64,000 nt of DNA from Brachybacterium endophyticum (GTDB lineage: Bacteria > Actinomycetota > Actinomycetes > Actinomycetales > Dermabacteraceae). The notes under the pieces are model-generated. The model had not been told where the DNA came from. It was given only the letters and a program-made list of their open reading frames with translations, and did not search any database. Location of the stretch: assembly GCF_003130585.1 (NCBI RefSeq), contig NZ_QFKX01000005.1:186001-250000 (forward strand), written 5' to 3'. Below are positions 16,652-19,741 of the stretch, piece after piece (position 1 is the first letter of the stretch; the number at the start of each line of letters is the position of its first letter). The position numbers and the translations under genes were made by a program.

Positions 16652-16715
16652 CCCGGGTCGCGAAGCCGCCGCGGTGGGCACCGCTGTCGACGCCGACGAG
16701 GGCTCCGCCGAGGGC

Positions 16716-16745
16716 GGATCAGCGCAGCGTGGATCCGCACAGCGC
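16716..16745. repeat. 15-bp imperfect tandem repeat upstream of clpP
   Basis: GGATCAGCGCAGCGT (16716-16730) is followed directly by GGATCCGCACAGCGC (16731-16745); three mismatches. It ends 43 bp before the clpP ATG in the 202-bp divergent region. Confidence 0.6.
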
Positions 16746-16788
16746 GGAGACTCGACCAACGGCGCATCCGAGGGGCCAGGGTCACCAC

Positions 16789-17463
16789 ATGACCACTGCA
16801 CACACATCCCGGACGGCCAGCGCCGACGACACCTCGACCCCGCTGCCGGCTCTCGCCGAGCGCACGGCAGGGGGCCTCCTGCATCAACGGATCCTGCTGC
16901 TGGACAAGGAGCTCGACCAGGACAACGGCGCCCGGCTGTGCGCCCAGCTCGTGCTGATGGCCGCGGAGGACCCCGGCCGCGACATCACCCTGCTCATCAA
17001 CTCACCGGGCGGCCTCGTGCCCGCGATGCTCGCGATCGGAGACCTCATGGATCTCGTCCCGTGCGACGTGCGCACCGTCGCCCTCGGCATGGCGTACAGC
17101 GCCGGTCAGTTCCTGCTCACCCAGGGCACGCCCGGGAAGCGCTTCATCCTCCCGCACGGCCGGGTCCTCATGCACCAGGGGTCCGCCGGCTTCGGCGGCA
17201 GCGCCGCCGACATCGAGCTGCAGGCCGAGGACCTGCGACGTGGGCGCGACCTCTTGATCGACATCACCGCCGAGCGCACCGGCCGCTCCCGCGATCAGAT
17301 CGCCCGCGACTCCGAGCGAGACCGCATCTGGGAGGCCCAGGACGCCGTGGTCTACGGCTTCTGCGACCACGTCCTCGACGACCTGTCGCAGGTCCTCCCG
17401 TTCCCGCCGGGGCAGGGTCGCCGGGGCACCGCGGGGATCGTCGCGGAAGGAGACGCCCGATGA
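16789..17463 (+). CDS. ATP-dependent Clp protease proteolytic subunit, intact triad
   Basis: A 224-residue ClpP-family serine protease subunit. Aligned by eye with E. coli ClpP, the catalytic residues are kept: Ser104 in AYSAGQF, His129 in LMHQG and Asp178 in ERDRI. The oxyanion-side block NSPGG at 71-75 is present. It works as a ring with a partner and an AAA+ unfoldase such as ClpC or ClpX, neither of which is encoded here. The first 24 residues are a polar extension. The stop overlaps the start of the second subunit (ATGA). Confidence 0.93.
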   Translation: MTTAHTSRTASADDTSTPLPALAERTAGGLLHQRILLLDKELDQDNGARLCAQLVLMAAEDPGRDITLLINSPGGLVPAMLAIGDLMDLVPCDVRTVALGMAYSAGQFLLTQGTPGKRFILPHGRVLMHQGSAGFGGSAADIELQAEDLRRGRDLLIDITAERTGRSRDQIARDSERDRIWEAQDAVVYGFCDHVLDDLSQVLPFPPGQGRRGTAGIVAEGDAR

Positions 17464-18050
17464 GCAGCTACACGATCCCTTCCGTCACCGAGCGCACCTC
17501 CCAGGGCGCGGAGCGCAGCGCCGACGTGTTCTCCCGGCTGCTCAGCGACCGGATCGTCTATCTGGGGACGCCGGTCGACGACGGGGTCGCCAACACCGTC
17601 ATCGCCCAGATCCTGCACCTGGAGAACGATGCGCCCGACCGGCCCATCCAGCTGTACCTCAACTCCGAGGGCGGCGACGCGCAGGCGGTGCTCGCGATCC
17701 ACGACGCCCTGGACTACGTGCGCAGCGACGTCGCCGTCACCTGCATCGGCCAGGTGGTCGCCGCGCCCGTGGTGCTGCTGGCCGCCGGGACACCGGGGAT
17801 GCGCGCCGTCCTCCCGCACGCCCGCGTGGTCCTGCATCCCCTCGAGGCGAGCGGTCGGGGCGCCGTGCCCGACCTGATCCTCGCCACCCAGGAGATCGAG
17901 AGAGTGCGCCGGGAGCTCGAAGCCGTGATCGCCGAGCACAGCGCGACGGACCTCGCGACCGTACGGGCCGATCTGGAGCGGGAGCGGGTGCTGGATGCGC
18001 AGGCGGCCGTCGACTACGGGCTGGCCGATCACGTGTTGCGACGCAGGTGA
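17460..18050 (+). CDS. ClpR-like, probably inactive ClpP-family subunit
   Basis: A 196-residue ClpP homologue. The position of the catalytic Ser is Ala101 (GQVVAAP instead of GQAASMG), and the catalytic Asp is replaced by Glu175 (ERERV for ERDRF). His126 is kept (LHPLE). It should fold as a ClpP ring subunit but not cut peptide bonds, like ClpR proteins of cyanobacteria and plastids. Translational coupling to the active subunit suggests a fixed mixed complex. The same reading frame stays open for 77 codons after the TGA stop, covering an apparent gene remnant. Confidence 0.9.
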   Translation: MSSYTIPSVTERTSQGAERSADVFSRLLSDRIVYLGTPVDDGVANTVIAQILHLENDAPDRPIQLYLNSEGGDAQAVLAIHDALDYVRSDVAVTCIGQVVAAPVVLLAAGTPGMRAVLPHARVVLHPLEASGRGAVPDLILATQEIERVRRELEAVIAEHSATDLATVRADLERERVLDAQAAVDYGLADHVLRRR

Positions 18051-18284
18051 GCTCCCGGCACGTTCACCCTGGCGCTGGTCCTCCTCGGCACCCCGCGCGA
18101 GGTCGCGCTCCGTCGGCTCACGGCGAGGCGCGGGGAGCACCCGGACGACGTCGTGCTCGACCCGGAGACCGCGCTCCGCTATCACGCCGCATTCGAGGAG
18201 CCGGTCGGGTCCGAGGGATTCGACGCGGTCCACCGCGTGCGACCCGGGGACCCACCGGGATCGTTCGAGCTCAGGCGACTTTGA
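18051..18284 (+). pseudogene. Remnant of a C-terminal protein segment, possibly a P-loop kinase
   Basis: After the ClpR stop the same frame continues without a start codon to TGA 18282-18284. The 77-residue translation (for example LVLLGTPREVALRRLTARRG, then HPDDVVLDPETALRYH) has normal actinobacterial codon use and looks like the end of a nucleotide-kinase-like ATPase, which I infer only from general similarity. It has no ribosome-binding site and overlaps the last 14 bp of the regulator gene on the other strand. It is best read as a decayed gene 3' end; readthrough of the ClpR stop is the less likely alternative. Confidence 0.4.
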
Positions 18285-18645
18285 GGAGCGTGCCCCCGGG
18301 CATCGTGGAGGGCGAAGCAGTCAGCGGGATGCCGGCCGGGCCCGACCGCGACGTCCTCGAACCGGTCCGGCCCGTCAGGTCCAGGACGACGGCCGTGCGC
18401 GGTCCGACGACGGCGGAATCGGCCACACGTCGCCCCGCCTCGAAGACGCTGATCCCGAGCGCACCGGTGATCGCGGACAGCACCTCGCTCGAGGGGTCCT
18501 TCTGACCACGTTCGACATCGGAGAGGTGCTGCATGCTCACACCGCTCGCCTCGGCGAGCCGCGCGAGCGTCAGACCTTGGCGGCGGCGCTCGCGGCGCAG
18601 GGCCGCTCCGACCAGTTCGCGCAGCAGCGGTTCGGTGGCATCCAT
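18271..18645 (-). CDS. ClgR/PopR-like XRE-family activator of clp genes
   Basis: A 124-residue regulator with an XRE helix-turn-helix (LARLAEASGVSMQHLSDVERGQKDPSSEVLSAITGALG) very close in pattern to ClgR and its Streptomyces paralogue PopR, known activators of clp operons. The C-terminus ends in Leu-Lys-Val-Ala; short Ala-ending tails make ClgR and PopR targets of Clp itself. It faces the ClpP pair. A TAGCCT box 6 bp before the ATG suggests a leaderless transcript, and a strong palindrome lies centred 48 bp upstream. Which of ClgR or PopR it equals cannot be settled here. Confidence 0.8.
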   Translation of the reverse strand: MDATEPLLRELVGAALRRERRRQGLTLARLAEASGVSMQHLSDVERGQKDPSSEVLSAITGALGISVFEAGRRVADSAVVGPRTAVVLDLTGRTGSRTSRSGPAGIPLTASPSTMPGGTLLKVA

Positions 18646-18682: not shown

Positions 18683-18703
18683 CGCTCCGCTGTCAGCGGA
18701 GCG
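18683..18703. promoter_or_regulatory. Palindromic operator upstream of ClgR/PopR-like gene
   Basis: Arms CGCTCCGCT and AGCGGAGCG are perfect inverted copies around GTC; two further outer bases pair after one mismatch. The core reads CGCTGACAGCG on the minus strand, which fits the ClgR core pattern CGCYNANRGCG as I recall it for Corynebacterium. The centre is 48 bp upstream of the predicted start site, a usual place for an activator. Confidence 0.6.
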
Positions 18704-18767: not shown

Positions 18768-19640
18768 TCACGACGCCGTCTGCGTCCCCAGCACGGCGAC
18801 GAGCTCGAGCTTCTGCGCGGCCCCCGTGCGCGGGGGCGCGGTGATCACGAGCAGCACCTGCGAGGCGTCCTCCGTGAACAGCGCCTGGCAGTCCACCTCG
18901 ATCTCCCCGACCTCGGGATGCACGAGCACCTCGTGGTCCTCGAAGCGCTGTGCGACCACGTGCGCATCCCACAGCTCACGGAACTCCTCACTGATCCCCG
19001 CGAGCTCACGGGCGAGAGCGCCGGCGCGGGAGCGCGGGCCCATCGAGCCGTAGGCCGCTCTCAGGGTCGCGGCCAGAGCCCGGCTGCGCTGCGCATGGTG
19101 CTCCGGCGGGTAGATGCCCCGAGTGGTCTCCGGGCTCGCGAACCACCGGTAGATCCCGCTGCGCTCCCACCCCGTCAGCTGCGAGGCGTCGCCGAACAGC
19201 GCCCGCGCGGCGTCGTTCTGCACGAGCGGCTCGTCGAGAGCCGAGAGGATCATCGCCGGGGTGTCGGAGAGCCGGTCGAGCACCCGCAGCAGAGCCGGCG
19301 AGACGTGGTCGGCGACGGCGAGACGGTCGGGTGCGCTGTGACCTGCGACATGGAAGAGATAGTCGCGCTCGTCGGCGGTGAGGCGGAGAGCGCGGGCGAG
19401 CGCGACGAGCATCTCGGAGGAGGGCTGCGGTCCGCGGCGCTGCTCGAGCCGGCTGAGGTAGTCCACGGACATCGCCGCGAGCTGAGCCACCTCCTCGCGG
19501 CGCAGGCCCGGCGTGCGGCGACGGGCACCGAGGGGGAGGCCCACGTCGGCGGGGGAGATGCGGTGACGACGGCTGACGAGGAAGGCAGCCAGAGCTTCAC
19601 GATCCATCCCGCGTCGTTCATCCATCCGGTCCACGTCCAT
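18768..19640 (-). CDS. MmyB-like helix-turn-helix regulator
   Basis: About 290 residues. An N-terminal XRE domain (TPGLRREEVAQLAAMSVDYLSRLEQRRG) is followed by the MmyB-type ligand-binding domain with ALDEPLVQNDAARALFGD and HVVAQRFEDHEVLVHPEVGE. This family usually controls a divergent dehydrogenase or detoxification gene, matching the SDR gene here 101 bp away. A GATACT box 7 bp before the ATG at 19640 supports that start; ATGs at 19625 and 19607 are alternatives. Confidence 0.88.
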   Translation of the reverse strand: MDVDRMDERRGMDREALAAFLVSRRHRISPADVGLPLGARRRTPGLRREEVAQLAAMSVDYLSRLEQRRGPQPSSEMLVALARALRLTADERDYLFHVAGHSAPDRLAVADHVSPALLRVLDRLSDTPAMILSALDEPLVQNDAARALFGDASQLTGWERSGIYRWFASPETTRGIYPPEHHAQRSRALAATLRAAYGSMGPRSRAGALARELAGISEEFRELWDAHVVAQRFEDHEVLVHPEVGEIEVDCQALFTEDASQVLLVITAPPRTGAAQKLELVAVLGTQTAS

Positions 19641-19647
19641 GGCATGC

Positions 19648-19653
19648 AGTATC
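19648..19653 (-). promoter_or_regulatory. -10 element, leaderless start of MmyB-like regulator
   Basis: GATACT on the minus strand, 7 bp before the ATG at 19640. Confidence 0.45.
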
Positions 19654-19741
19654 CCGGAGCGGGAACGTCGCAACCAGGGATCCGTGATCCCCCGATCGAC
19701 CCTCTCTGGTGCGCTCCCGCAGCGGGTGCGAGGCTCCCGAC

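Follow-up and report, generated by a model that had tools for sequence, protein, structure and literature searches.

Organization of the clp locus

We analysed a 64,000-nucleotide stretch of the Brachybacterium endophyticum genome (contig NZ_QFKX01000005.1, positions 186,001 to 250,000; the window), in which two adjacent ClpP-family genes face a gene for a ClgR/PopR-like regulator. The first gene, clpP-A (16789-17463, + strand), encodes a ClpP3-type catalytic subunit of 224 amino acids, and the second, clpP-B (17460-18050, + strand), a ClpP4-type subunit of 196 amino acids that is predicted to be inactive and to act in docking. The popR-like activator gene (18271-18645, - strand) encodes a ClgR paralogue of 124 amino acids with an HTH_3 domain and the C-terminus LLKVA. 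Both ClpP products match the Pfam family CLP_protease, ClpP-A with 178 bits and ClpP-B with 183 bits (cut-off 20.2). The end of clpP-A and the start of clpP-B share the letters ATGA, an overlap that a first-pass annotation of the window had pointed out and that the coordinates bear out; the same overlap occurs in 19 of the 20 congeners compared.

The assembly of this genome comprises 3.55 Mb in 17 contigs. A separate main clpP1P2 pair, as the description of the locus as an accessory module had implied, was found in it at C10:593415-594702, and both of its subunits carry the Ser-His-Asp triad (SHD). The accessory pair is present in 21 of the 38 Brachybacterium genomes searched, this one counted. 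Among solved structures, the chains closest in sequence to ClpP-A are 6pbu_A and then chains named proteolytic subunit 1, while those closest to ClpP-B are Streptomyces hawaiiensis ClpP (8xn4, 8xop, 8xon), a Staphylococcus chain and Mycobacterium tuberculosis ClpP2.

Active sites of the two subunits in Brachybacterium

When aligned with Escherichia coli ClpP, residues Ser104, His129 and Asp178 of ClpP-A fall on S97, H122 and D171, and the same three columns are occupied in ClpP-B by Ala101, His126 and Glu175, with gap-free columns flanking the catalytic positions. The alignment confirmed both the triad annotated for the first subunit and the two substitutions annotated for the second. Ala101 and Glu175 are each fixed in 21/21 Brachybacterium loci (the window and 20 congeners), and position 126 holds His in 17 loci and Arg in the remaining 4. 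The triads read in ClpP-A and ClpP-B support the proposal of an active/inactive ClpP pair.

ClpP-B showed a median pairwise ratio of nonsynonymous to synonymous substitution rates (dN/dS) of 0.26 over 210 pairs, with a median dS of 0.56, a level high enough to make all these ratios rough; the corresponding medians were 0.31 for ClpP-A (190 pairs, L039 left out) and 0.51 for the regulator. Mean column identity was 85% for ClpP-B (21 rows) versus 67% for ClpP-A (16 rows, variable tails included). Set A2 omitted L038, L039, L043, L050 and L053, and L039 was excluded from all ClpP-A counts. At the B. halotolerans locus (L039/L056), the clpP-A frame is interrupted by a TAG, through sequencing error or recent loss; clpP-B and the regulator gene appear intact there.

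A structure model of ClpP-B built from a 72-row alignment reached a predicted local distance difference test score (pLDDT) of 90.9 and matched ClpP chains at Z of about 29, with residues 5-196 spanned. An earlier model from the 21-row genus alignment was discarded (pLDDT 58.7, below 50 in the active-site region). With a modelled ClpP fold and an Ala/His/Glu triad, ClpP-B is ClpR-like. Because the substitutions are genus-wide and the gene is under purifying selection, ClpP-B looks like a conserved pseudoprotease and not a decaying gene.

Loss of ClpP-B catalytic residues across Actinomycetes

We searched 296 Actinomycetes genomes with a ClpP-A profile, which avoids selecting on ClpP-B, and read 88 listed loci (L172-L259) at the top of the ranking by similarity to Brachybacterium ClpP-A. 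Removal of the window itself (L172), of L190 (no clpP-B in range) and of 11 loci whose second subunit scored below 200 bits left 75 accessory loci. Those 11, together with the main pair of the window's own genome, formed a housekeeping-type set of 12. The seeds used to draw a named set, the best 80 of 256, contained the Glu175 motif, so that the share of Glu in this set is biased. In all, 163 accessory loci were compared: the window, 13 of the 20 congeners, 70 named, 75 surveyed and 4 plasmid loci. L140 and L141 (SHD in both subunits, no regulator match) were left out of the counts.

ClpP-A was SHD in 75/75 of the listed surveyed accessory loci. Its partner was broken in 60 of them, which is not a phylum-wide rate because the loci were drawn from the top of the ClpP-A similarity ranking. 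The broken triads differ from one another: Ser is lost in 38 of the 75 (Ala 16, Glu 10, Gly 7, Trp 4, Phe 1), His is lost with Ser kept in 16 (Gly 15, Asp 1), and Asp alone is changed in 6. The lineages with the Asp-only change may be conditionally active, by analogy with Listeria ClpP1. His is replaced by Gly in all 15 loci of group f5, which read SGD or SGE; Streptomyces fungicidicus (L136) reads SGD, and from the operator and the likeness to this species we infer that f5 is Streptomyces-like. In the housekeeping-type set, the first subunit is SHD in 12/12 and the second in 10/12, the other two being L252, cut at a contig end, and L257 (G277), which reads TQE. The latter scores below the accessory threshold and is a further degenerate ClpP outside this family.

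In a tree of 82 rows with the three catalytic columns removed, 75 representative ClpP-B rows (five of them f5) separated from 7 ClpP2-type outgroup rows with a Shimodaira-Hasegawa approximate likelihood ratio test (SH-aLRT) value of 100. Parsimony required at least six changes between intact and broken ClpP-B, though it cannot prove their direction on this quick tree, in which 20 of 79 inner branches are starred and 27 open. Intact triads are found in the outgroup and on several early branches. By their sequences, ClpP4 subunits show a wide tendency to lose catalytic residues, and different ones per lineage. The annotation knew of no characterised actinobacterial example of the Ala/Glu double substitution: the substitution is real and fixed in Brachybacterium, but it is one case of this wider ClpP4 loss.

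Cutting and docking parts

Over the 163 accessory loci, ClpP-A is SHD in 163 while the ClpP-B triad is intact in only 21. The docking parts follow the opposite pattern. In ClpP-B, Tyr occupies E. coli position 62 in 162/163 loci, and position 82 holds Tyr or Phe in 145 (His in the other 18); the counterparts in the window are Tyr66 and Tyr86. At position 82 an aromatic residue is found in ClpP-A in only 6/163 accessory loci, versus 12/12 housekeeping-type pairs, and the window's ClpP-A carries Thr/Leu/Leu at positions 60/62/82. The axial-loop profile matched 0/159 ClpP-A sequences (the window's included) and 159/159 ClpP-B sequences, a count which used extended N-termini, left out the four plasmid loci and relied on a profile built from the same ClpP-B rows.

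The pocket positions scored are the counterparts of E. coli Y74/Y76/F96. According to excerpts of PMC9765437, changes at these positions in S. hawaiiensis ClpP2 abolish ATPase-dependent degradation, while its S131A variant keeps full activity; papers cited by PMC number are cited from excerpts throughout. As judged from sequence, the losses in ClpP-A and ClpP-B are largely complementary, and the accessory pair looks like an end point of the ClpP1/ClpP2 division of labour, in which A would cut and B would dock.

Operator boxes

Upstream of clpP-A, the window carries a candidate PopR operator of abutting 15-bp TCTGCC-N3-GGCAGA-type boxes. Box 1 (16704-16718, TCCGCCGAGGGCGGA) matches TCYGCC-N3-GGCRGA at 12/12 positions. 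The imperfect box 2 (16719-16733, TCAGCGCAGCGTGGA) abuts it and is sub-threshold alone, being placed by the 15-bp register of the congeners, and box 3 (16734-16748, TCCGCACAGCGCGGA) abuts in turn with a 10/12 match. A single PopR-type box stands before the regulator gene at -55 (18686-18700, TCCGCTGACAGCGGA on the regulator strand). This regulator box is found at -55 or -56 in 21/21 Brachybacterium loci, and clpP-A boxes of at least 9/12, spaced 15 or 30 bp, in 19/21 (exceptions L035 and L049); L050 was scored from a later clpP-A ATG, with boxes at -71/-56.

The published S. lividans PopR site is TCTGCC-3N-GGCGAATCTGCC-3N-GGCAGA (PMC9775585). The exact site is present in S. fungicidicus (L136), and the Streptomyces-like loci L228 and L239 carry the same box pair. 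Boxes of at least 10/12 were found upstream of clpP-A in 63/70 named loci (shuffled mean 7.1) and 73/76 surveyed loci (6.4), and in 1/12 housekeeping-type pairs (1.3). Upstream of the regulator the numbers were 50/65 named (6.8) and 55/68 surveyed (7.0).

Two genome-wide searches for a regulon were rejected. The pattern CCGC-N5-GCGG gave 730 matches in the window's own genome versus 1134 in the backward control and was uninformative. A tandem box pattern gave matches scattered over 31 of the 38 genomes, many of them clearly outside clp loci, and did not match the window's own box array. A striking array in the congener G017 (C79:13771-13875, L266) lies inside a putative ABC-ATPase frame, FtsE-like by context, with no clpP or regulator match; this genome has only two PF00574 matches.

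The regulator and its tail

The regulator carries a helix-turn-helix domain (HTH_3), and its top NCBIfam match is ClgR at 62.7 bits, under the cut-off of 170. It lies on the strand opposite to the pair in 21/21 Brachybacterium loci, and a convergent ClgR-type regulator is found downstream of the pair in 62/70 named and 69/75 surveyed accessory loci. Tails end in Ala-Ala in 147 of 155 regulators and in Val-Ala in 5, the remainder being AV, AS and AR; in Brachybacterium 20/21 end in Ala-Ala, whereas the window's regulator, ending in Lys-Val-Ala, has the minority form. The annotation of a ClgR/PopR-like regulator with a degron-like Val-Ala tail thus held for the family and for the end itself, but Val-Ala is atypical and the normal form is Ala-Ala. 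The genome's main ClgR-like regulator (G000:C10:700468-700701, L261) ends in VGAY and has no alanine tail, unlike the accessory regulator.

ATPase partner

No Clp ATPase gene lies in the clpP-A/clpP-B/regulator locus, and the three proteins with a ClpB_D2-small domain in the window's own genome are all encoded away from it. Brachybacterium genomes hold three such proteins in 33 of 38 cases, four in 3 and two in 2, whether the pair is present or not. Because these numbers are independent of the pair, the idea of a dedicated ATPase was rejected, and no partner ATPase travels with the genes. The annotation's self-contained module could therefore not be upheld. Nor does its feedback loop appear to close within the module, since the degradation of Streptomyces PopR depends on housekeeping ClpP1P2 (PMC9765437).

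Surroundings of the locus

Between clpP-B and the convergent regulator, the clpP-B frame stays open for 77 codons past its TGA (18051-18284, + strand). This stretch is unlike the corresponding gaps of L039, L041, L043, L051 and L052, and it may be a gene remnant. The ends of clpP-B and the regulator gene overlap by 20-29 nt in 15/20 congeners. Next to the popR-like gene lies another regulator of the XRE type (18768-19673, - strand), which has an MmyB-like ligand-binding domain. The mog/moaA neighbours of the window are shared by L039, L041 and L052 only among the fetched stretches L034-L053 and are not seen in those of the other 17; the comparison suggests that the position of the cassette varies among genomes of the genus.

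Proposed function and alternatives

Orthology, gene order, operator conservation, genus-wide substitutions, selection and the largely complementary losses can all be read from the sequences. Because of the operator type and the regulator tails, we identify the window locus with Streptomyces clpP3-clpP4-popR; probably it is the orthologue of that system, a PopR-controlled backup peptidase in which ClpP-B docks the ATPase and ClpP-A cuts.

For regulator degradation, conditional expression, ring composition, ClpP-B inactivity and the use of ClpX or ClpC, we infer the following course. The PopR-like activator would carry a C-terminal Clp degron and would be destroyed by housekeeping ClpX/ClpP1P2. 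When the housekeeping protease fails or is overloaded, the regulator would switch on clpP-A and clpP-B via the abutting 15-bp boxes; the one box before the regulator gene itself points to autoregulation. The ClpP-B ring, its catalysis lost but its axial loop and hydrophobic pocket retained, would dock a shared ATPase (ClpX or ClpC). The ClpP-A ring, with reduced docking parts, would do the cutting, and the product would be an asymmetric double ring.

Several observations weigh against this proposal. ClpP-B inactivity is not obligatory, as 15 of the 75 listed surveyed loci keep SHD, and distant, possibly intact pairs are under-sampled in the survey. His126 is retained in most Brachybacterium ClpP-B. 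Outside Brachybacterium the docking loss in ClpP-A is only partial, with Trp, Tyr or Phe still at E. coli position 62 in 131 of the 163 loci (Tyr in 38). The window's regulator ends in Val-Ala instead of the usual Ala-Ala, and S. lividans PopR is reportedly also degradable by ClpP3/ClpP4, which would add a second loop. Finally, the half-life of an antitoxin in E. coli was reported to be shorter when an S. cattleya 'ClpP4' was co-expressed with ClpX (PMC4989188), a result made ambiguous by the numbering and by the host ClpP.

The subunits might also be arranged otherwise. In Synechococcus, three ClpP3 subunits alternate with four ClpR in the ClpP3/R rings (PMC4673316), and A and B could be arranged in the same manner within each heptamer; a sequence cannot reveal ring composition. 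We regard such mixed heptamers as unlikely, for ClpP-A is ClpP1-like, with no axial-loop motif, and ClpP-B is ClpP2-like in loop and pocket. ClpP1 and ClpP2 themselves differ in the N-loop (PMC4416901), and the Streptomyces ClpP1P2 core is asymmetric, with the ATPase and the acyldepsipeptide antibiotic ADEP on opposite sides (PMC9765437). Slightly less probable still is a cross-assembly in which A or B assembles chiefly with housekeeping ClpP1 or ClpP2 and B modulates the main protease. There is a precedent in S. hawaiiensis ClpP-ADEP, which breaks up ClpP1 complexes activated by ADEP and assembles with ClpP2 into an active complex (PMC12607617), but the conserved ATGA overlap and the complementary losses fit A with B.

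Two further alternatives concern ClpP-B itself, and both appear far less probable. It might still be a peptidase through an unconventional site, given the His kept in 17/21 Brachybacterium loci, the ability of Glu in principle to stand in for Asp, and Listeria ClpP1, which has Asn in place of Asp and whose triad is brought into alignment in ClpP1P2 (PMC9765437). This is highly improbable, as the Ser column holds no nucleophile (Ala in 21/21), His gives way to Arg in 4/21, and Gly, Trp, Glu or Phe occupies the Ser position in other lineages. That clpP-B is decaying, or no more than a bystander, as the lost catalytic residues might indicate, is the most improbable of all: it is better conserved than ClpP-A in both column identity and dN/dS, and its axial loop and docking residues are near-invariant over the 163 loci.

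Novelty and implications

The clpP3-clpP4-popR system is already known, and it is the generality of a dead second subunit that is new within the literature searched. We found no report of systematic ClpP4 inactivation in the open-access literature searched, including PMC8182300 and the papers cited here by PMC number, a scope that did not extend to the original S. lividans papers of Viala. We consider it slightly better than an even chance that actinobacterial ClpR-like subunits arose in parallel (at least six changes) and that complementary degeneration of ClpP3 and ClpP4 yielded a half-active, one-sided, PopR-controlled core, Streptomyces included.

If this is true, the Streptomyces ClpP3P4 backup core would have one catalytic ring only, and ADEP or active-site poisons could not hit it in the usual way. 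ClpP3P4 is described as ADEP-insensitive (PMC12607617). Studies with ADEP or beta-lactones would need to be cautious about counting ClpP4 as a protease. The advantage of mixed ClpP cores 'remains unclear' (PMC4673316), and the accessory loci offer many natural replicates, in which the inactivating residues vary, some relatives keep the triad and the cell also has an active housekeeping pair. These replicates make the evolution of dead ClpP subunits testable in Streptomyces, where strains deleted for clpP1P2 and a readout for ClpP3 are available (PMC9765437).

Comparison with known systems

The closest known system is the Streptomyces clpP3-clpP4 operon with PopR (Viala et al. 2000, 2002, as cited in PMC9765437, PMC12607617 and PMC9775585), in which PopR activates clpP3P4 when ClpP1 or ClpP2 fails (PMC9765437, PMC12607617). 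Both are second bicistronic clpP pairs beside clpP1P2, with the same gene arrangement, tandem 15-bp boxes and a ClgR-paralogue regulator with an alanine-type tail, although the window's Val-Ala differs from the Ala-Ala degron of PopR. ClpP-B groups with the Streptomyces-type ClpP4 (f5, as assigned above) and apart from the ClpP2-type. The Brachybacterium second subunit has lost Ser (to Ala) and Asp (to Glu), whereas that of the Streptomyces-like loci has lost His.

Cyanobacterial ClpP3/ClpR and plastid ClpP/ClpR likewise combine a catalytic subunit with a dead ClpP homologue, a mixed core being only presumptive here. The loss in ClpP-B looks independent of theirs, because the nearest relatives of the pair are actinobacterial (best 80 of 256) and the dead state lies inside an actinobacterial clade with intact members. 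ClpP-B scores 143.9 of 359 against NF009203 and 124.8 of 263 against NF009204, which we take to be cyanobacterial-type Clp models, and it reaches the cut-off of none of the ten NCBIfam models listed. We know of no counterpart of PopR control in the cyanobacterial or plastid ClpR systems.

With housekeeping ClpP1P2 the pair shares the division of labour between a cutting and a docking subunit. In Streptomyces, ClpP1 cuts and ClpP2 docks the ATPase, the Ser of ClpP2 being dispensable (PMC9765437), and docking in M. tuberculosis is likewise by ClpP2 (PMC4416901). The difference is that ClpP2-type subunits keep their triad (SHD in 10/12), whereas most accessory pairs fix the split in sequence. Listeria ClpP1 is also one ClpP of a heteromeric pair with a degenerate triad, but there Asp alone is changed and the subunit is active within ClpP1P2 (PMC9765437), whereas Brachybacterium ClpP-B carries no nucleophile.

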